Shown: one piece after another, positions 1 to 21,051 of the stretch
Layout of the letters: each line of letters starts with the position of its first letter
Position numbering within the stretch: the stretch's first letter is position 1
DNA from: a virus
Reading direction: 5' to 3' (one strand)
Length of the DNA: 26,352 nucleotides
Virus record (IMG/VR): IMGVR_UViG_3300009788_000274
Location: 1 to 26,352 of that record
The notes under the pieces: model-generated
Told to the model about the DNA's origin: nothing
The model's database searches: none
The model's input: only the letters and a program-made list of their open reading frames with translations
Position numbers and translations under genes: made by a program

Positions 1-1148
1 TGCCAATCACATTCCTGCTCTGCTCCGTTTACCGACCAGTCCCCGTTATATTCCTCTGAGTTACCATCGGGGTCTTGAAGACTAAAGCCTGACGTGCCTA
101 AGTAAAACCCTCCGTATGTCACCGTTACAGAACCATCTGAGCTATTCTGCGCCATCCCCGCTGTAGCAGGCCCATTGGTCAAGCCCGTGATATTTACAAA
201 AGCCCCTCCAGCATCAAGCGTTATCGTTAAGGGGTTGTCATGGTCATGGAATTTCATTGCCGAGGCAGGCCCAATAGTATCCCTGAAAAGGCTCTCCCCG
301 GCAACATCCAAGGTCTTGGTGGGTGTGGCGTTTCCTATCCCAAGCCTGTTATTCACGTCATCCCAGAAGAAGTTTGCATTGTCTTCCACCGTCATACCAG
401 TGGAATTGATGAATACAACGGATCCGCTTGTGAGTAGGGGGCCGCTGAGTTCGTTGAAGTACGAGACATTGATGGGATTGACCATTATGATGCCCTCGTT
501 TGCGTTTATCCTCAGGGGAACGCCCATAAATATCTTTCTCTCGGAGCCAGTGGGCCTTACATTGGTAAGTCCTCCATCCTCATTACCGACCCAAAGGCGA
601 TCAACTATATTCCACGATTCTCCATATGGTGTTCCGGTAGTATCAAGCTCCCTGACAAGCCCAAATGTGGTGATATAACCGAAATTAGTATTATCAATAA
701 TTTCAGTTGAGAGCCCGATAGAACCTGCGGCGGCAGGAGCAGCTGCATTGGAAAGACCCCACTCAGGAAAGCTCCCCGTTCCCCCCGTTATTCTCACAGC
801 AGTTCCATTGGCTATCTCGCCGCCTGTAGTGTTCTTGCCCCGGACAACCATCTCCTGACCTATCTGGAGACAAACATTGCCACCCTTGAGGCCAAGATTG
901 TTAGTGCCATCAGTATCATTCCAGAACGTCTTGGCTTCTTCACAGGGTATGCCGTCTGTGGTATTAAACATGATGTATCCGACATCAATTATGGGATTGT
1001 CGTTTGCGTCGAGCGCACCCGCCAAGCTTGGGGTGTTGAGAATAACCCCATCTTTAGGCGTATCAGTTCCATATAATCCCACGCCCACATTAAGCGCCCA
1101 TACTGGAGAGCTTAGAAGAAGAACCAATATAAGTATAAGTATTCTCAT
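1..1148 (-). CDS. Tail-fibre-like protein with Sec signal peptide (3' end outside window)
   Basis: An open frame of 382 codons starts at ATG 1146-1148 behind a GGGGGAG ribosome site and has no stop before base 1, so the C-terminus is missing. Residues 1-18 form a signal peptide (MR, a run of Ile/Leu, then SSPVWA before Leu19). The middle part (about residues 85-205) carries phage-fibre wording: LQIGQEMVVRGKNTTG, IANGTAVRITG, ITTFGLVREL and DGGLTNVRP. Around residue 262 is DDVNNRLGIGNATPTKTLDV, a repeat common in phage fibres and beta-rich appendages. Such proteins usually lack an export signal. It follows another signal-peptide protein and the lysis genes. Likely an appendage or surface-displayed beta-rich protein; receptor binding is inference. 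Confidence 0.8.
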   Translation of the reverse strand, partial: MRILILILVLLLSSPVWALNVGVGLYGTDTPKDGVILNTPSLAGALDANDNPIIDVGYIMFNTTDGIPCEEAKTFWNDTDGTNNLGLKGGNVCLQIGQEMVVRGKNTTGGEIANGTAVRITGGTGSFPEWGLSNAAAPAAAGSIGLSTEIIDNTNFGYITTFGLVRELDTTGTPYGESWNIVDRLWVGNEDGGLTNVRPTGSERKIFMGVPLRINANEGIIMVNPINVSYFNELSGPLLTSGSVVFINSTGMTVEDNANFFWDDVNNRLGIGNATPTKTLDVAGESLFRDTIGPASAMKFHDHDNPLTITLDAGGAFVNITGLTNGPATAGMAQNSSDGSVTVTYGGFYLGTSGFSLQDPDGNSEEYNGDWSVNGAEQECDW

Positions 1149-1157
1149 ATCTCCCCC

Positions 1158-1616
1158 TTAATTGATAATGTAGACGATAACTACGCCCTCTGCTGAATTG
1201 ACGGAGTTATTGGTGATATTCAGTGTTATCGGGCCTTCGGTTATTCTGCACCCGAAAGACGTATTGATCTTTGGGACAACTTGCTCTGAGTTCGCAGTGT
1301 CTCTATTGGCAAGCTCTCCCCCCATAATGTCCACGCCTGAGGGGTCTGTGATAGTAATATCATAATTGTCTGTTGGGGCCGGACTGCCTGGGTTCGTGAC
1401 CACAAGTGCTACGCAACCGCCCTTATATTTGGGCCATTCTCCATCTGAGGAAGTCGCCGGTACTGTCGCGGCTGATGCGGCGTTTGCTATCCATGAAAAG
1501 GTTATCGTTTCGATCCCATCGTTTATGGTTCCGCGCTTGACGGTAACCGTTCCCTCCGCCCATGACATTGTAGCCATGAGCATGACGATTATTAATGCAA
1601 GTATAAGCTTTCTCAT
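1158..1616 (-). CDS. Exported beta-rich phage protein, Ig-like pattern
   Basis: 152 residues with a textbook Sec signal (MRKLILALIIVMLMATMSWA before Glu21). The mature part is about 130 residues of alternating polar and hydrophobic residues with APTDNYDITITDPSGVD and ELANRDT. I know this wording from small phage proteins that usually lack a signal peptide. Two Cys (near 69 and 123) could form a disulfide after export. ATG 1614-1616 overlaps the o-spanin stop by four bases, so the two are translationally coupled; the next gene is the fibre-like protein. Function is unknown. A virion appendage component or a secreted or periplasmic protein are both possible. Confidence 0.8.
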   Translation of the reverse strand: MRKLILALIIVMLMATMSWAEGTVTVKRGTINDGIETITFSWIANAASAATVPATSSDGEWPKYKGGCVALVVTNPGSPAPTDNYDITITDPSGVDIMGGELANRDTANSEQVVPKINTSFGCRITEGPITLNITNNSVNSAEGVVIVYIIN

Positions 1617-3150: not shown

Positions 3151-3516
3151 TTAAAAGCCTATTCTTAGGCCGATAGTTAGATTGTTGGCTACCACGCTGG
3201 ATTGATGCCCGATCATTCCCACCTGAAACATGTGAGACCACTTTTCAGGAAGTGCATAAATTAATAGTGATGTAAGCCCGTAATATGCGGCGAAATATGA
3301 GTAAACCTCTCGCTCTGTAGGGTGTTCTCCTAATACTTTATTTGTTTCTGTATATGCCTCAGGCTCACGCGCTATCTGCAAAGTCTGCTGCATATCGGCA
3401 ATCATCACTATTGTTAGCGGGATGTGTAACTGTGTGTTGAGCTTATCCCATGTGAATGGTTCTGCCTGGGCGAGTGCGGGGGTTAGGCATAGTATTATGA
3501 GTATGATGTATTTCAT
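3151..3516 (-). CDS. Signal-peptide membrane protein of phages, unknown function
   Basis: 121 residues with a Sec signal (MKYIILIILCLTPALAQA before Glu19). The mature part has ETNKVLGEHPTEREVYSYF (about 57-75), followed by two hydrophobic stretches (about 76-91 and 97-117) that may be membrane helices. The ETN-x-x-LG-x-HP wording recurs in small phage and bacterial membrane proteins of unknown role. ATG overlaps the stop of the giant gp16-like gene by four bases (ATGA), so it is coupled to the ejection-protein operon and leads into the lysis genes. A role in lysis timing or superinfection exclusion is possible but only a guess. Confidence 0.75.
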   Translation of the reverse strand: MKYIILIILCLTPALAQAEPFTWDKLNTQLHIPLTIVMIADMQQTLQIAREPEAYTETNKVLGEHPTEREVYSYFAAYYGLTSLLIYALPEKWSHMFQVGMIGHQSSVVANNLTIGLRIGF

Positions 3517-6500
3517 CGTCTGCGCCTCTCTTTTATCTCGCTACCCCTACCAAACCACCAGTAATACAGCTTGCCGATAACAGGTATGCTTTCAATGGTT
3601 TTGAGCTTATCAACTGCAAAGTTTTCCTCGAAGTCGTCATAGAGCTTTATAACGTCCTTGGTTATGTCATCCACAAGCTTTGTGGGCGGGAGAATCATTT
3701 GACCTATCGCGCTTCCAAGCCCTTCTCTGCGAACCTGAAAGACGGTGTAACGGCTGAACCCTATGAGCTTGGCTACGTTATCCACTGCCAGATCATTAAA
3801 ATCTATCTCCCTGCCAAGCAATAGATCCTTTAAAATGTCTGCTGTGGCATTCATAGCCATTAAGAGGGCGGACAGTCTTATAAAGTTCCGTATAGCCTGA
3901 GTCGGGTTATCACTCATCTGGTTATATACTTCATTCCTGTAAACGTCCAGCATTTTGATAGACCATGTTTTCAGCATGTAGAATATGCGCCCGTTCCCTG
4001 CTTTCAGATATTGCTCCGGAACCTCGGAAAGTGCCACGGGCTGGAAGTTGAGTAATTCGTTAAATGAGAGATATTTCACGTTCTCAGAGATTATGCCATC
4101 CCTCAGGTCTTGCAATACGTCCTCGGTCTCGTTGCCGAATATCTCCTTGAGGTCTCTGGTGAGCCCTGCATCGTCCTGACGGGCAAGTCTCTGGTACTTC
4201 GATACCACGGAGTTGATAAGGGCTTCCTTGCCCACTCTGTCCATCTGAGTGAGTCCTACGAGCCTAAAAACCGTATCAACCATTGCAGCCATTTTTGACT
4301 TCTCTTGAACCTCTGTGGCAATCCTCTCTATTCCAATGTCTTCTTTTTTTATCACAGATTTGCCAATAATTGACTTAACGGCTGCGGGGAGAGAATCGCG
4401 TAACCCTCCGGCATATATAGCAAAAGATAGGTCTCCTATCTGGGTGATGGCGTTAAACACCGAACCCATGACCGTTAAATAGGACAAATTTTTATATATT
4501 CCAACAAGCCCTCTTGTGCCTTTTTGCTCGAATCTTGCGGTTAAAATAGTACGCACTTCCTTCTCCTGGCTGGGCTTTAACGTGCCTTCATTTATCAGGT
4601 CAAGGATATAAAAACCTAGTGAATCTTCGAGATTGTTAAACTCATCCACCTTTGAGTCCGTGGGCCTGCTCTTGCCAAAGAGTTTGCGGGCTTCTATTGC
4701 TTCATTCACGGATTCGAGATAATTGATAAGTGCTGAGTTTGAATCACTGTAAAATACGTTCATCTCAGGGGTTACGAAATCTATAATACGGTCTTTCATG
4801 TTCCCCGTGGCTGAGAGCGTTATATTCCCGCCACTGTAGCCGCGTATCATATTGTTAATAAGGTTTACTTTCTCCTGCTCGACCAAAGCCCTGCCAAGCG
4901 CAAACTCCTTACGCTTGATGGCTTCGTCTAAAATACTCCAGTCCTCACGATCTGACATGAACTCATGGAATCCGGCTGAGTCTTTGATGATCCTTGGAAA
5001 GTAATTCTCCAGGTATCCAATATCAAACCCAACCTCATTGGCGCGGGCATAGATATTGTCGAGTACTTCCTTAACCGCTTCATATTCATCGGTAAACCCG
5101 TGCTCCTCTGTAAGTTCCTGAATCTTAGTGGTGTCACCATTTTTTAACGCCATGTCCAGATCAGCGTAATTATCTTTACTGAGCTTCCCGACCTTCTCCA
5201 GATAAGGAAGGACTGCACGGTTATCCTTCTGGGTCTGAGTCAGTACAGCAAACTCAAACCTTCTAAGAGCCTGCCTGAGGGTGGGTGAGATATTAGCCAG
5301 TCTGGTAGAAATGGGGCCAAGCAATTTATCTACGGTCTTGACCGCGTTTTCGCCTACCTCCTTGGCCTTCTTGACAAAAGCAGACTTCCTGCTTGGCTGG
5401 ATATTCCGGTTAATCTCATATACCGTTTCTGGTATATCAGTGCGCTTGCTACCGCGCTTTTCAATGGCTGGCCTGAATCCCCTTGACCTCTTAAACCTCA
5501 CACGAGCTTTCAATTTCTCGGTTATCGCGTCAAGTTCTTTATCATTCATCTGGCTCAATGGCTTCTTAATATCAAGCTCAGATTTGATGTCATTTATCAC
5601 GGTCTGGTTTATCTCATTAATTTTTCTTATAAAGGCTATCTTGCTCCGCTTGCTTCCAAGGTTCTTCTTGAGCCTCTTAGCCTCCTCAAAAGCGTTGGCG
5701 GCATCCTGTATGCGCTCGGCTACGTTGCCGAACTGTGTTGCAGTTGTGGAATTGGCAATAGCTTTCAGGAATTTACCCCTCAGGGCCACGGGTAGGGTCT
5801 CGCTTGCAAGCTCTGTGAGCGTGCGCCTTGTGGCCCTCTCTATGCGTGTAACAGTCCTTGCCTGGGCCTGTTGCCTTCTAAGCGCGTTAATCTTCGTTCT
5901 CGCCTGTTCCACGGCCTCCTGACGGCCTTCTCGTCTGGCTATACGGGCAAGTTTGACCTGTTCGCCTATCTCTGAGACCAATAAGTCTACACGCTCTCTC
6001 TCCTGCTCTGTGACTTCTTCCTGCCTGAATACCTGTTGACTGCGTTCTTGTGCTACGGTTTTAAGGCGCTCTGCTTCTTTTGTGAGGGCTTGAATGGTCT
6101 CGCCCTGCTCTTTAATCTCTCCCTTGAGCAATTCGGCCCGCGTGGGCTTTGCTATTTCTTGAAATTGAACCGTATCAATAAAGTCAGAAATCCCCTGGTT
6201 AATTATCTGGTTAAGTTCGCCCTCGGCAAGGTTCTCGGTGGCGTCAAGGAAATCGCCTTTTGTGGCCTGAACTTGGGCAAAGAAAGCCCCGCCTATGCTC
6301 TCGGCAATGGCTGTAACAACCTCTTTCTCGCGGGTGTTGGTAAGGGCTTCTCCGGACTGAACCTTGTCAATTACATTGAGAATCACGGCCTTGTCTACTC
6401 CTCGGAGTTCTTCTATGCTCTCAATCTGACGCCCTCCGGCCTCAACTAAGGCCCTGAGATTAACCATTCTCTGAGATATATCAAGGATGGGTTTAAGGCT

Positions 6501-8117
6501 CTCGTCAAGTTTCAGGTCAGGGAATAACGGCCTTGCCTCCTCTGGCCCGAACTCAATTGACCCGCGCTCCTCTTTGAGCTTGTTGAAAACCCTTGTCATG
6601 AATCCCTTGAACCGCTCCCATAGATCGCCAAGCTTGGTTTTCATGCGCTCGGTGAATGTCTGCTCGTCTGTCACGCCCTCGGCTATAACGCGCCTGCCAA
6701 GGTTCTCAAGGTCTGGTAGCGCGGCCTCATCTTCGACCTGTCCCAAATTGGACAATATTTCGGTTTCTTCTGGTATTCCCTCTAAAGTGTCGGGTATTTC
6801 TTCCTCAGTTGGGGTAATTTGCCCCACTATTTCTTCTTCTGTGGCTTCTGACGCTATTAATTGCTCGAATGCCTCAGTGGTTATCTCCTCGCCCTCGGCT
6901 ACCTGAACCGCCTCCGCTTCCTCGGCTATGCCCTGTATTCTCTGCTGGAAACCTTCTATCAGGTCGGTGTCCTGAGGAGTAAGGTCTGATTCGGCCTTAT
7001 CCTGCGCGGCTGCTGTGATAATTGATACCCCGCCTCCAACTATTGCGCCCACGCCAAAAGCTCGTACAAGGTCGCCAACTGCGGGGGTGTCTCCTGTGGC
7101 AACGCCTGAAATAACCTCTTGTCCGGCCTCCTGAGTGCCTTCAAGGACTGCTCCACGAATAGCGCGGTTTATGACGCTGCCGCCCTCTGCGAATATTCCA
7201 AGTTTGTTGGTGACCACGAGCAAAGGCACGTTTAACCAGAATGTAGTGGTTGCCGCGTCCTCGGCTCTGCTCTTACTCCCTGTTTCCCTGAGTACATCCC
7301 TGTAAACCAGTCCGGCCTCTGTGGATGCTTCTAAAGAGGTCATAACGCCAGTTCCGGCCCATGCCGCGAAACGTGTGGAGGCTCCGAATAATAGCTGTGT
7401 TCCTTGCGCCACGCCGAAGCCTGGAATAAAAAATACAGCCATTGAGCCAAAGCCTCCGGCTACATCGTCCGAAAAGTCGCGCTCCTCTGCGCTTGGGGCG
7501 AGTTCTGATCTCCACACGGATGCTTGGTTAGCAAGGTCTGCGCCCATCTCGCTATCGGTTATCCATTGCACGCCTCCCGCGAGACCTTCAATGCTTCCGA
7601 GTGCTCCGGCCCCTATGCCCTTACCAAATCTCTCAATGCGCCTCAATCCCTCGCCCTCAGGGACTAATTGACGCTTGAACTCCTCAACCGATATGCCACG
7701 CTCACGGGCTTCAAGGGCTATGTTGGCCTCTGCTATGCCTGCTTCTCTCGTGCCGAACAATTGCCTGAAATATCCGTCCACTTCCTCCCATAACGTGCGT
7801 TCCGGAGCTTGTCTGAGTTCCGGTTGCCTCCTGCGCTGAACGTCAATCATGCGGGCCTGTATCGCACCTTTAAGGGATTGAGCGTTCTTGTCAGAGGAAA
7901 GTCTGCCGTTTATCTGCTCTACGTTGGCCTCTGCGTCTCCTGGCTCCATGCCGAATGAGAAGAAATTGACATGAGCGTCCGCAATGGCTTGGTTATTCTC
8001 CGGTAATGCTTCTATCTGCGGGGATTCCACGGTATCAGGAAGTCTTGTAAAGTCAAGCCCTTTTTTCTCCATTTCAACTTTATCAGGAAGTCTTGTGAAG
8101 TCAAGTTTATTCGCCAC
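3513..8117 (-). CDS. Giant internal virion / ejection protein (T7 gp16-like position)
   Basis: 1534 residues from GTG 8115-8117, overlapping the previous stop. N-terminus: two copies of LDFTRLPD with 16-residue spacing (residues 5-12 and 21-28). Residues about 165-372 are rich in Gly/Ala with several hydrophobic stretches that could insert in a membrane. Residues 373-480 are strongly acidic. A long charged coiled-coil region lies around 640-870. The C-terminal half is helical, ends in YYWWFGRGSEIKERRRR, and resembles large polyvalent phage proteins. Last in the portal to gp11-16 order, it matches the gp16 slot, whose product forms the trans-envelope DNA channel. I see no lytic transglycosylase domain, which T7 gp16 has at its N-terminus. 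Confidence 0.75.
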   Translation of the reverse strand: MANKLDFTRLPDKVEMEKKGLDFTRLPDTVESPQIEALPENNQAIADAHVNFFSFGMEPGDAEANVEQINGRLSSDKNAQSLKGAIQARMIDVQRRRQPELRQAPERTLWEEVDGYFRQLFGTREAGIAEANIALEARERGISVEEFKRQLVPEGEGLRRIERFGKGIGAGALGSIEGLAGGVQWITDSEMGADLANQASVWRSELAPSAEERDFSDDVAGGFGSMAVFFIPGFGVAQGTQLLFGASTRFAAWAGTGVMTSLEASTEAGLVYRDVLRETGSKSRAEDAATTTFWLNVPLLVVTNKLGIFAEGGSVINRAIRGAVLEGTQEAGQEVISGVATGDTPAVGDLVRAFGVGAIVGGGVSIITAAAQDKAESDLTPQDTDLIEGFQQRIQGIAEEAEAVQVAEGEEITTEAFEQLIASEATEEEIVGQITPTEEEIPDTLEGIPEETEILSNLGQVEDEAALPDLENLGRRVIAEGVTDEQTFTERMKTKLGDLWERFKGFMTRVFNKLKEERGSIEFGPEEARPLFPDLKLDESLKPILDISQRMVNLRALVEAGGRQIESIEELRGVDKAVILNVIDKVQSGEALTNTREKEVVTAIAESIGGAFFAQVQATKGDFLDATENLAEGELNQIINQGISDFIDTVQFQEIAKPTRAELLKGEIKEQGETIQALTKEAERLKTVAQERSQQVFRQEEVTEQERERVDLLVSEIGEQVKLARIARREGRQEAVEQARTKINALRRQQAQARTVTRIERATRRTLTELASETLPVALRGKFLKAIANSTTATQFGNVAERIQDAANAFEEAKRLKKNLGSKRSKIAFIRKINEINQTVINDIKSELDIKKPLSQMNDKELDAITEKLKARVRFKRSRGFRPAIEKRGSKRTDIPETVYEINRNIQPSRKSAFVKKAKEVGENAVKTVDKLLGPISTRLANISPTLRQALRRFEFAVLTQTQKDNRAVLPYLEKVGKLSKDNYADLDMALKNGDTTKIQELTEEHGFTDEYEAVKEVLDNIYARANEVGFDIGYLENYFPRIIKDSAGFHEFMSDREDWSILDEAIKRKEFALGRALVEQEKVNLINNMIRGYSGGNITLSATGNMKDRIIDFVTPEMNVFYSDSNSALINYLESVNEAIEARKLFGKSRPTDSKVDEFNNLEDSLGFYILDLINEGTLKPSQEKEVRTILTARFEQKGTRGLVGIYKNLSYLTVMGSVFNAITQIGDLSFAIYAGGLRDSLPAAVKSIIGKSVIKKEDIGIERIATEVQEKSKMAAMVDTVFRLVGLTQMDRVGKEALINSVVSKYQRLARQDDAGLTRDLKEIFGNETEDVLQDLRDGIISENVKYLSFNELLNFQPVALSEVPEQYLKAGNGRIFYMLKTWSIKMLDVYRNEVYNQMSDNPTQAIRNFIRLSALLMAMNATADILKDLLLGREIDFNDLAVDNVAKLIGFSRYTVFQVRREGLGSAIGQMILPPTKLVDDITKDVIKLYDDFEENFAVDKLKTIESIPVIGKLYYWWFGRGSEIKERRRR
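8033..8105 (-). repeat. Two direct 25-bp repeats coding for LDFTRLPD
   Basis: Copies at 8081-8105 and 8033-8057 differ by a single base and are 48 bp apart, in frame at the start of the giant ejection protein. Each encodes LDFTRLPD, joined by a short charged linker. Confidence 0.85.
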
Positions 8118-15923: not shown

Positions 15924-16901
15924 TTAAGTTATCTGGCTCTCCGTGAAGGTGAGTGCGTCCATGAGCCTGACGGGTGAACCGTCAATCATGGGAATTTCGC
16001 CATCGCCAAACACATCGGTGCTCAGTGTGAGGTTTACGTTTGTACGGTTAAGAGCGGCCTTTTTGATCTGGGAGAATATCTTTCTGTTGACATAGATAAT
16101 CGCGCCCTTGCCGCCGTTCTTCATTACGACCTTGAGGTCTATGATGTCCTCAAAGTTAAACAGGTTGCTTGCGCCTGCTGTCTCAATGTTGCGAATTGCG
16201 CCGATGCACTTCGGGTTCTCGACCACGAGGCCAAAGTGAGCCTTGAACTGAGTGGAGTAAACCATCAGTCTTGCGCCATCAACCGAAGCTGACCACCTGG
16301 GGATTATCCCAAGGTCTTTCTGCTGTATGCCTGCCTGTGAACCTGTGGGATACACACCGTACACCTGATTCATTCCGGGCTGCACCACAACCACGCTCGA
16401 CAAATCGCTGCCACTGCCGCCTGCGTCAAGGATGAACTCATCATCAATGACATCAAGGCGGGTAAGAATACCCGTCATCTGGTCAGGGTCAACATCGTTG
16501 TTGCCGTACATCATCCTTGAGCCTGTGGTCTGTGAGATACCTTCTACAAAAGCAGTGTCCTCACTTGACCTCAAGCCTCCAACGTCTCCGGACTGGTTGG
16601 CGAGTTCTTCGTCAATGTCCGAATAGTCCTCAAGTATCTCTATAACGTCCCTGTTCTTCTCAGTACTCGATGCACTGGGAGATACAGGCTGGTTATATCT
16701 GCGTGTCCTTCCTGCTGGCTGGCTGACACGAACGCTTGATGTATGCGTAATGTTGCTGTTAGCCTCCCTGAACGGTAAATCCAGGAGCAACGCATTGTTG
16801 TCCGTGATTACCTCGGCTATCTTCATAAGGTTTCCCTTATCGTCAAACCGTTTCATGACTTCAAGGAACGTCATGTCCTGGTTATTGTCAAATGTTGCCA
16901 T
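15924..16901 (-). CDS. Major capsid protein
   Basis: 325 residues. Starts MATFDNNQDMTFLEVMKRFD and continues IAEVITDNNALLLDLPFREAN, wording I associate with the HK97-fold major capsid proteins of BPP-1-like (Bbp17) podoviruses. Residues near 70-110 (RRYNQPV, EDYSDIDEELANQS) look like the extended loop and spine helix; later parts include NQVYGVYPTGSQAG, KDLGIIPRWSASVDG and FKAHFGLVVENPKCIGAIRNI. AAGGAGG precedes the start. Scaffold directly upstream and cement directly downstream confirm the role. Confidence 0.9.
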   Translation of the reverse strand: MATFDNNQDMTFLEVMKRFDDKGNLMKIAEVITDNNALLLDLPFREANSNITHTSSVRVSQPAGRTRRYNQPVSPSASSTEKNRDVIEILEDYSDIDEELANQSGDVGGLRSSEDTAFVEGISQTTGSRMMYGNNDVDPDQMTGILTRLDVIDDEFILDAGGSGSDLSSVVVVQPGMNQVYGVYPTGSQAGIQQKDLGIIPRWSASVDGARLMVYSTQFKAHFGLVVENPKCIGAIRNIETAGASNLFNFEDIIDLKVVMKNGGKGAIIYVNRKIFSQIKKAALNRTNVNLTLSTDVFGDGEIPMIDGSPVRLMDALTFTESQIT

Positions 16902-18286: not shown

Positions 18287-20019
18287 TATCCGCCCTCCCC
18301 TGCAGCTGCTGCCATGGCCTCGGTTATAGCTCCATCGCTGTCTTTATCGGCCTTGGCAAGTTTACCCGCTGTCTCTGCCTGTAAAGCCAGTTTGTCTGCC
18401 TGCTCCTGCTCTGCTGCTATCGCTGCGTCCTGTGCGCGTTCCTCCTGAACCTCTTTAAGGGGTCTTATTCCTTTTGCGGGGAATATATTACCCTCTGCTA
18501 TTTCCCTGACAACAATGTCACTGTCAAAATTCCTTAAGGGTTCTGCGCCAAACAATTGAACAACGCCGCCAAGGTCAAATATTGTCTCGTTTATCCCCCT
18601 GGTCTGGAATAGACGGCTCTGTACCTGTGCCAGTGGGCCAAGGAATGAGATTTTAACGTTATCGCCTTCTTGTAATATCTCAGGCGGTACAGGCATTCTC
18701 CCTGCATCGTTCTCAATCTGGAACACTCTACCGAGTGCGGCGCTAGTAACTCCCTGTAAGCGGGTAATGCTGCTCATTAATATAACTACCTTCTCGCCCT
18801 CTTTAAGGGTTGCTTCCGTGGCTGTCTGCTGTCCCTGGCTTGCGTTAAGAGCTATAAAGAAGTCCACACTATATGTTTCTCTTACAGCCTGTTGCTTTGC
18901 GGCCTCTCTGTCGCGTGATACAGGGTACTCCCGTGCCATTTCAAGGAATGACGGGGGTGTTTCTCCATTTGCAATGAAGTTAATGCCTCGTGCGCCAAAG
19001 TCTGCCACGCCCTCTTGTGATGGATCTGTTATAGCAGGGGGCTCTGCGGCACGCTCTGCCACGCCTAGCAGGGTCTTGCCTATGATATTGAGTGCCATCG
19101 CGTCCGGCAGTGCTCTCATGGATGGTGAGCGTCCGTATTCCTCTCTCGTGTCCCTGTATGGTCGCCATACCATGTAAGGCATCGTGTCAAAGCCGCTCTC
19201 CTTCAAGATAACGTCCTCTGACTTGACACCCTTCTTGTTTGATTGCCCCTGAAAGGTCTTACTGTCCTGCGTGCCTGTATTATTGACTTGTCCGGTCAAT
19301 ATCCATAGAGACGCAAAGGGCTTGTTAATGGAGTCGAACTTGAACGGGTCGTAATCCTCACGCTTATAGACCGCGTGTATGACAATGCGCTCTGCAAATG
19401 GATTCTGCTCGGCGTCCTCTATGATGTCTGCTGGCACGCTGTCGCCAAACTTGCTGATGATCTGCTTGAGCGTGAAGGTTATCTTGCGGTGGAATACGTC
19501 AACAATGTTCTTATCGTTGTGCGAGAGATATGATTCGCCTGGATGAATAGCCATTGCGACTATGCCGCCGCTCTCGAAATCCTCCTCTATGTAGAACGGT
19601 GCGGTTCCTATCGTGGCCCCGTCCTGAATCATAAGCAGGAGTTCATCATAGAAGTTGGAATCGCTTAGAACTGCAAACATGGACTCCTCAACCTCTTGCA
19701 AATAAACCCTTACATCCCTGATGTCATTAAGCTCTGAGTTCTTCATGCCAAGCTTAAACCATGGCTTATCTGGCGTGGCAAAGTTCCCGAATATCCCATT
19801 TACATGAATATCAAGTGATGTCTGAGCCGTTGAATCATAGATGTCATCCCAACGCCTTTCGCCCTGGGGTTCAGTCTGGCGGATATCTGCGCGTAAGGGT
19901 GAGATTTCGCGGCCTATCTCTTCCCACGTATCCTCGTACCTTGACCGTCTCGTGGCAAGCCAAGCCTGTGTCTTGATGACATTGGATATTATTTTAGTTT
20001 CGCGTTCGTTCTCAGCCAT
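18286..20019 (-). CDS. Portal protein (head-tail connector, T7 gp8-like)
   Basis: 577 residues. The start MAENERETKIISN is followed by TRRSRYEDTWEEIGREISPLR, the usual opening of podoviral head-to-tail connector proteins. Other landmarks: DDIYDSTAQTSLDIHVNGIF, MIQDGATIGTAPFYIEED, PYMVWRPYRDTREEYGRSP, ALPDAMALNIIGKTLLGVAERAAEP and a C-terminal KEGEKVVILMSSITRLQ helix. The C-terminus is an Ala/Glu/Lys-rich helix. A dodecamer of this protein forms the DNA gate at the capsid vertex. I start at ATG 20017-20019, with GGGAG eight bases upstream; a TTG one codon earlier is less likely. The start overlaps the previous stop (TGATG). Confidence 0.9.
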   Translation of the reverse strand: MAENERETKIISNVIKTQAWLATRRSRYEDTWEEIGREISPLRADIRQTEPQGERRWDDIYDSTAQTSLDIHVNGIFGNFATPDKPWFKLGMKNSELNDIRDVRVYLQEVEESMFAVLSDSNFYDELLLMIQDGATIGTAPFYIEEDFESGGIVAMAIHPGESYLSHNDKNIVDVFHRKITFTLKQIISKFGDSVPADIIEDAEQNPFAERIVIHAVYKREDYDPFKFDSINKPFASLWILTGQVNNTGTQDSKTFQGQSNKKGVKSEDVILKESGFDTMPYMVWRPYRDTREEYGRSPSMRALPDAMALNIIGKTLLGVAERAAEPPAITDPSQEGVADFGARGINFIANGETPPSFLEMAREYPVSRDREAAKQQAVRETYSVDFFIALNASQGQQTATEATLKEGEKVVILMSSITRLQGVTSAALGRVFQIENDAGRMPVPPEILQEGDNVKISFLGPLAQVQSRLFQTRGINETIFDLGGVVQLFGAEPLRNFDSDIVVREIAEGNIFPAKGIRPLKEVQEERAQDAAIAAEQEQADKLALQAETAGKLAKADKDSDGAITEAMAAAAGEGG

Positions 20020-20270
20020 CAAACATCTCCCTCAATGTGGCATATACCACATGTACCCATGTTGTGCTGTACTACGCGCTCAAGGTAGCGTATGTCGCCA
20101 TTGAACACAAAGGCCCCCTTGGCTACAATCTTGGTGGCCTCCTGTTTCATGGAGACGCGGCCCTGCTTATATGCCCTGTAATGTGTGAAGGGCATAGCCA
20201 TAAGAAGCACCACAATGACCGCTATCAGTATCTTAGGGCTCAAGTATGCGTACCCTAAATACAACTGCAT
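20019..20270 (-). CDS. Small single-helix membrane protein ending in CGICH
   Basis: 83 residues from ATG 20268-20270. One membrane helix at about residues 15-32 (LIAVIVVLLMAMPFTHY region), a basic stretch after it (RAYKQGRVSMKQ), then a polar tail ending MGTCGICHIEGDV. CGICH fits the CxxCH haem c or metal-binding pattern but the domain is too short for a normal cytochrome c, so I do not call one. The start is uncertain: TTG 20241-20243 would give a 74-residue protein whose start sits just before the helix and overlaps the previous gene less. Its stop touches the portal start. Confidence 0.6.
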   Translation of the reverse strand: MQLYLGYAYLSPKILIAVIVVLLMAMPFTHYRAYKQGRVSMKQEATKIVAKGAFVFNGDIRYLERVVQHNMGTCGICHIEGDV

Positions 20271-21051
20271 CGTCTGCTGCTGCCGCAATAAGCGTCACAG
20301 TCAAAGTCGTGCCTGTTATCGAGGTAGAATTTGCTACTTCTGCATCAACATTTGCAAATGCAAAAGCCCCTCCCATCTCTTGTGCTCCTGATGTAACGGT
20401 AGCTGTACCACTTGTTTGTCCGGCTACAATCGGGACATTAACAAGGCTTGAATTGAACTCTGAGGCTCCGATAGCATTTGCCACTATAGTCAAAGCGCCT
20501 GAGTTGGCTATTCCAGCATCTCCGGACATGGTAACTGAATCCCAAGTACCTCCGCCTACGTTGGTGGCTACCTGTATGTTGCCGTCCGTAGCAGTGCCGA
20601 AGTCAACGGCTACATTGTCCACCTTATCGTTGGTCATTACTCCGGCATTTGTGATAGAAGAATCGCCCGTTACAGTGAATGGTGCTGCAAGTCCTGTTGA
20701 CTGTCCTATGAGTAGCTTAGTATCCGCAAGTGCAATAGTGCTTCCGATGCTCTCAGTCAGAGCCACTGTGCCGGATGAGTCGGGGAACCCAATATCGTTA
20801 TCAGCGGTGGGTTCAATTGATCGAATAGTAGTTTCAAACCCATCGCTGGTTGGGCCTTCCATTACCAGACTGTTGATATAGCCAATGCGCCATGCCTGCC
20901 CATCCTTGCCAAGTCTGCCGTTCTTATCCCCGTAGCCTGGGAGCCACTCCTGCTCTGCTGCCGCGAACCCTGCCAGTCCGAATACCAGTATCGTGATGAC
21001 TACCATTGCTATGATTCTTCCGTACTTCTTGCCTTTCTTTTTCTTAGCCAT
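20233..21051 (-). CDS. Fibre-like protein with N-terminal export signal
   Basis: 272 residues. The N-terminus is KKKKGKK followed by an 18-residue hydrophobic core (RIIAMVVITILVFGLAGF) and AAA before Glu33, a plausible Sec signal or a membrane anchor. The rest is low-complexity beta-rich appendage sequence: LVMEGPTSDGFETTIRSIEP then DNDIGFPDSSGTVALTES, and DTKLLIGQSTGLAAPFTVTG followed by DSSITNAGVMTN, standard wording of phage tail fibres. The C-terminal part (ASEFNSSLVNVP to RVRILEP) is a small beta domain. AAGGAGACG precedes the start. It sits between terL and portal, an accessory position, not with the tail genes. Confidence 0.78.
   Translation of the reverse strand: MAKKKKGKKYGRIIAMVVITILVFGLAGFAAAEQEWLPGYGDKNGRLGKDGQAWRIGYINSLVMEGPTSDGFETTIRSIEPTADNDIGFPDSSGTVALTESIGSTIALADTKLLIGQSTGLAAPFTVTGDSSITNAGVMTNDKVDNVAVDFGTATDGNIQVATNVGGGTWDSVTMSGDAGIANSGALTIVANAIGASEFNSSLVNVPIVAGQTSGTATVTSGAQEMGGAFAFANVDAEVANSTSITGTTLTVTLIAAAADDAVVFRVRILEP

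Follow-up and report, generated by a model that had tools for sequence, protein, structure and literature searches.

Tail-fibre-like and probable head-decoration proteins with predicted Sec signals in tailed phages, and their possible late docking on virions

The structural proteins of phages are taken to stay in the cytoplasm, which raises the question of why a tailed phage should carry two consecutive genes whose virion-type products seem to be addressed to the host Sec pathway. The two genes lie at one end of a 26,352-base virus record (the window, meaning the whole stretch of DNA that was analysed), an incomplete, podovirus-like contig from IMG/VR whose minus strand carries the structural and lysis genes. 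These comprise terminases, portal, scaffold, capsid (15924-16901), tail and internal virion proteins (the head and tail genes, the portal excepted, being named from sequence character), together with an M15 endolysin without a signal (2205-2747) and a holin (1997-2191), both assigned by family matches, and an overlapping i-spanin/o-spanin pair (1613-2033). Within the pair, the Rz-like ORF (1758-2033) matches the PHROG Rz-like spanin weakly (E=0.025), and its partner within 1613-1969 has a lipobox (...LVVALSGC); a spanin-type pair of this kind implies a diderm host. Directly behind follow ORF152 (1158-1616; 152 aa, MRKLILALIIVMLMATMSWA followed by EGTVTV) and ORF382 (3-1148; 382 aa so far, MRILILILVLLLSSPVWA followed by LNVG), the C-terminus of the latter being lost where the contig ends. 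All of these genes are on the minus strand, and a preliminary description of this DNA had rightly placed the two ORFs immediately behind the lysis genes.

Signal peptides were called with a heuristic of our own based on hydropathy and an AXA rule, which takes a positive n-region, a hydrophobic core and an AXA-like site at residues 18-32 as type-I Sec features. Both window proteins have strong signals of this type. The best 11-residue hydropathy is 3.6 in ORF382 and 3.5 in ORF152, and cleavage is predicted after residue 18 of ORF382 (signal MRILILILVLLLSSPVWA, 1095-1148) and, as a type-I site, after residue 20 of ORF152 (signal MRKLILALIIVMLMATMSWA, 1557-1616), at an AXA-type site in each case. 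Proper ribosome sites precede the signal-bearing starts of ORF152 and ORF382 (GGCCGAGGAGGCTAAAAG-ATG and ATCAATTAAGGGGGAGAT-ATG), and the claim of two consecutive ORFs with classic Sec signals thus held. We saw no lipobox, outer-membrane barrel or autotransporter on either protein. A lipoprotein or outer-membrane exclusion protein of the Lom/Llp/Cor type was rejected for want of a lipobox or barrel and because the model of ORF152 is a soluble beta-sandwich. Judged from their sequences, both proteins are very probably exported and cleaved. Given a diderm host and the lack of a lipobox, barrel or autotransporter, they should then remain periplasmic until lysis. This weakens the earlier proposal that they serve as surface masks, receptor decoys or superinfection blockers on living cells, for which the outer membrane must be crossed and no route was seen; masking of the cell surface ahead of lysis is unlikely, the least likely of the readings.

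The mature part of ORF382 (3-1094) is a tail-fibre-like body. In tblastn searches, residues about 46-322 matched annotated tail fibre or tail proteins in 13 phage records at ~31% identity (best E 3e-22), among them the tail fibres of Pseudomonas phage Rollin (WNV50591.1) and Nitrincola phage 1M3-16 (orf113). All three of the best-covered annotated matches start without a signal, as expected of tail fibres made in the cytoplasm, whereas ORF382 has one. A profile of the body found at least 567 viral stretches encoding a relative; among the best 80 of these, 75 had an intact 5' end and none of the 75 was called as signal-bearing. Because the heuristic called about 3% of internal Met starts (81/2704) and none of these fibre relatives, the window signals are not attributable to chance, and a chance hydrophobic start was discarded for the same 0/75 and for the conservation of signals across orthologues. 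One relative does have a signal. This closest relative of ORF382, a 542-aa protein of the phage L014, is 76% identical over 244 aa and begins with its own signal, unrelated in sequence to that of ORF382 and followed by a module of ~80 residues that ORF382 lacks. That so rare a trait should occur on one body with two signals of unrelated sequence suggests that export has been selected for, and ORF382 is a predicted exported tail-fibre-like protein. Structure prediction of the fibre yielded nothing informative (mean pLDDT 29). As to a C-terminal tip or chaperone, that end of ORF382 is missing, and the exported 687-aa fibre of another locus, L033, has a C-terminal Peptidase_S74 chaperone.

ORF152 has 69 further viral relatives, with which it forms a hitherto undescribed family of beta-sandwich proteins. 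Pfam and PHROG gave no match for ORF152 itself and no family common to more than one of the 69. When the 70 non-redundant members were compared, 52 had no signal, most of them beginning with MAGTVT or similar behind ribosome sites, and 18 had one; these signals differ from one another, and those of the 17 relatives are non-identical to that of the window. In the window protein and its close kin (e.g. L019, L020, L023, L026, L033 and L077) cleavage at the predicted site would leave xGT(V/L), which is the N-terminus that signal-free members have after Met removal; the distant signal-bearing members L004, L062, L074 and L083 have diverged at the mature N-terminus. A tree of the mature part requires at least nine changes of signal state, five of them forced by well-supported branches, the exact number being soft because the tree rests on 126 columns and its bootstrap is unsettled. 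Nearly all of the family is viral: one scan gave 80 viral loci and 3 in genome contigs, and capture of ORF152 from host secreted genes was ruled out on this ground.

AlphaFold (AF2) modelled ORF152, whose mature part occupies 1158-1556, as a confident beta-sandwich (mean pLDDT 93). Foldseek matches in the PDB were weak (E 2e-3 to 7e-3, TM below 0.45), the top one being the capsid entry 7eel_H of cyanophage Pam1 (E 2.3e-3, TM below 0.4), with the Helicobacter phage KHP30 capsid entry 7dn2_1 also listed; two unnamed viral models matched well (TM of target 0.86 and 0.79). Head decoration or cement proteins such as these are likewise small beta-sandwiches, and the signal-free kin of ORF152 lie beside head-tail adaptor, major head protein and terminase genes. 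ORF152 differs from them in its Sec signal and in lying behind the spanins, outside the head operon; the exported members L019-L021 and L023 are also beside head genes. From gene position and the weak fold matches, a role in head decoration is likely for the family. The view that the mature parts are of virion type and cytoplasmic in relatives is thereby upheld, the body of ORF382 being that of signal-free tail fibres and the kin of ORF152 being mostly signal-free in head operons. As to whether signal-free homologues sit in tail operons, those of ORF152 are found among head and head-tail genes. One family copy per contig was present in 9/9 signal-bearing viral contigs and one MAG tested, contigs that may be incomplete, which suggests that the exported form replaces the cytoplasmic one and is not added to it. 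Cysteine content does not differ between exported and cytoplasmic forms, with no hint that the exported ones are adapted to an oxidising environment. In the phage of L014, an unrelated 148-aa signal-bearing protein that looks beta-rich (L094, 433-879) stands behind the spanins where ORF152 does in the window; it was considered as a homologue and dropped, as hhalign detected no homology.

Two more clear Sec-type starts occur in the window, at 20233-21051 and 3151-3516, both on the minus strand. The first belongs to a fibre-like protein of 272 aa (MAKKKKGKKYGRIIAMVVITILVFGLAGFAAA followed by EQEW) with a long charged n-region, predicted to be exported from its Sec-type start and its orthologue in L014. 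L014 is the closest relative of the window that we found (capsid 90% and portal 74% identical) and has three fibre-like genes between terminase and portal, one of 633 aa without a signal and two, of 427 and 542 aa, with signals. The 427-aa product is the orthologue, at 44-50% identity in two stretches, and codon-position differences of 10/3/19 indicate that the signal region of the window gene is translated. All three L014 fibres contain the module EQ..PG..GD..G..G....WR....(F/M)EG.TSD, which is at residue 8 in the signal-free 633-aa protein and comes immediately behind the signal in the exported 427- and 542-aa proteins and in the 272-aa protein of the window. A scan with the 20233-21051 protein found nothing, and portal-based and N-module scans recovered only L014 and one distant contig.

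Predicted exported appendages are not confined to these two phages. Genes beside signal-bearing ORF152 members were themselves signal-bearing in 28/79 cases, versus 12/241 beside signal-free members (loci not fully independent), and this large excess suggests that the unit is an exported appendage cassette. The 687-aa fibre of L033 with its Peptidase_S74 chaperone is one of these exported neighbours, those in L019 and L020 match PHROG tail-fibre families, and six consecutive signal-bearing genes occur on G004, a 49-kb phage contig (L074, L098), encoding an ORF152-like protein of 151 aa and then proteins of 1140, 67, more than 1437, 346 and 565 aa. Two MAGs of one class (the first of them named Desulfatibacillaceae) have orthologous exported cassettes and a third MAG has another, host assignment of such contigs by binning being uncertain. 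The predicted exported state thus recurs in several tailed-phage lineages. In L019 (3497-7545) and L020 (5810-9859) a conserved cassette lies between capsid-like and head-completion genes, in the order exported fibre, multi-span membrane protein (356/375 aa), single-span protein (~103 aa), exported ORF152 and exported fibre (471/473 aa); the 473-aa fibre of L020 had no isolate-phage match.

What, then, would the exported proteins do? Our preferred explanation, to which we assign a probability of roughly 0.4, is that virion appendage proteins are re-routed through host Sec and dock late on particles. ORF152 would represent, in exported form, a small beta-sandwich protein which stays cytoplasmic in most relatives and probably decorates heads, and ORF382 and the product of 20233-21051 would be exported tail-fibre-like proteins. 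Made late, they would cross the inner membrane through Sec, lose their signals to signal peptidase I and take up their fold in the periplasm. Once the holin opens the inner membrane, particles would mix with the periplasm and the exported proteins would bind finished heads and tails before the spanins break the outer membrane. The preliminary description had argued that virion proteins sent through Sec would be lost to assembly. This does not follow, as fibres and decoration proteins are known to join finished particles in classical in-vitro work (T4 fibres, P22 tailspike, T4 Hoc/Soc). The single family copy per contig, the kept mature N-termini, the kept docking-type modules and the positions in structural operons together favour the same job done by another route. 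A virion-type function is accordingly the better supported part and is fairly probable; docking at lysis is put forward tentatively. That tailed phages have repeatedly evolved assembly in two compartments, with heads and tails made in the cytoplasm and Sec-exported cement and fibres added between holin opening and outer-membrane rupture, is a bolder proposition that we consider less likely than not.

The main rival to late docking is that the proteins, still folded as fibre or cement, act off the virion, either released from the periplasm at lysis as decoys on debris or competitors, or blocking incoming phage within the periplasm. Signals and cleavage sites typical of soluble periplasmic proteins fit this idea, as does the closeness of the window genes to the lysis genes. 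L014 has exported fibres together with a signal-free one, so the exported fibres may do another job. Against it, the exported form is the sole family copy in each contig tested, the genes lie inside the head operon in several phages, and the N-terminal module, through which docking on the virion would be expected, persists after the signal; action before lysis, moreover, would have no outer-membrane route. We consider such free agents less probable than late docking.

The signals might instead be inherited baggage without function, either because the genes derive from secreted host genes or because trimers fold before Sec can engage them, the proteins reaching virions as usual. Some exported neighbours carry beta-helix and PKD domains, which occur in secreted bacterial proteins too. 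This is nevertheless improbable for a family that is essentially viral and has changed signal state repeatedly. The signals, furthermore, drift in sequence with all their features retained: between orthologues of L019 and L020 they are identical at 2/23 and 4/20 positions, the mature parts at 63% and 72%, and all are still signals. In the MAG pair, the signal codons of ORF152 gave a dN/dS near 0.4, though over just 25 codons, and the signal of the fibre was too short for a judgement.

Slightly less probable still is that an uncleaved hydrophobic start tethers the proteins to the inner membrane, where they would hold particles or act in the envelope. Small single-span membrane proteins in the cassettes and the long charged n-region of the 20233-21051 product would suit an anchor. 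The good AXA-type sites speak against it, and the coincidence in close kin of the predicted cut with the signal-free N-terminus is expected of cleavage and not of an anchor; the suggestion that the hydrophobic starts are membrane anchors is therefore disfavoured. Misplaced starts, with translation beginning downstream (in ORF152 at the internal ATG of residue 17, MSWAEGTVTV, which would yield a protein like the signal-free members), are very improbable, since a GGAGG ribosome site with a 7 nt spacer precedes the first ATG of ORF152 and none was seen at internal ones, and since the signal region of 20233-21051 is under protein-coding constraint. Homologues do align without a signal (52/70 members of the ORF152 family lack one, as do all 75 fibre relatives), in part the outcome that the preliminary description had named as a refutation, but the corollary that the starts are wrong is contradicted by the ribosome sites, the codon-position pattern and signals that have diverged and yet been kept.

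Coat proteins of filamentous phages are inserted or exported by host machinery before joining the particle, which is built in the membrane. Export of virion parts ahead of assembly is the common element, and the phage of the window differs in being tailed and lytic, with holin, endolysin and spanins. Lambda Lom (PMC12309495) is a signal-bearing phage protein encoded beside tail genes, as here, and is an outer-membrane beta-barrel made during lysogeny; it is not related to virion proteins, whereas the window proteins are homologues of fibres and, probably, of cement proteins, and carry type-I signals. Our search of the open-access literature, mostly at the level of titles and the openings of abstracts, returned SAR or secreted endolysins, Lom and unrelated matches, and nothing on tail fibres or cement proteins of tailed phages being exported by Sec; one phage paper states that no signal peptides were predicted (PMC12989515).

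Because the same protein occurs with and without a cleavable signal at matching gene positions, these phages form a natural comparison set in which the site of appendage assembly is testable. If late docking is true, lysis becomes an assembly step; if there is no docking, soluble relatives of fibre and cement proteins are being set free by phages as decoys. Either outcome would change how annotators should see 'tail fibre' genes with a signal; such genes are readily written off as host genes or mis-called starts.

Several minor features accompany these genes. Between the exported fibre and the portal of the window, a small single-span membrane protein (20019-20288, minus strand) has a C-terminal G-x-CxxCH-x-EG, a motif of haem-c or metal type that is kept in the L014 orthologue (7372-7692) at 35% overall identity; an exported fibre of L021 (6636-7784) ends in ...SDCIGCH. 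The 121-aa protein at 3151-3516 (MKYIILIILCLTPALAQA followed by EP), identified by its signal call, had no family match; it has more hydrophobic stretches (ETNKVLGEHPTEREVYSYF) beyond its Sec-type start, and its gene lies behind that of a large internal protein. Large internal virion proteins (window 3513-8117, minus strand; L094 2470-6639; L062 6416-7981) carry short tandem-duplicated peptides at their N-termini (LDFTRLPDKVEMEKKGLDFTRLPDTVE; DTSRLPNQ..DLTKLPDQ; SILDEALGNEQSSILDEAL), which are perhaps binding motifs.
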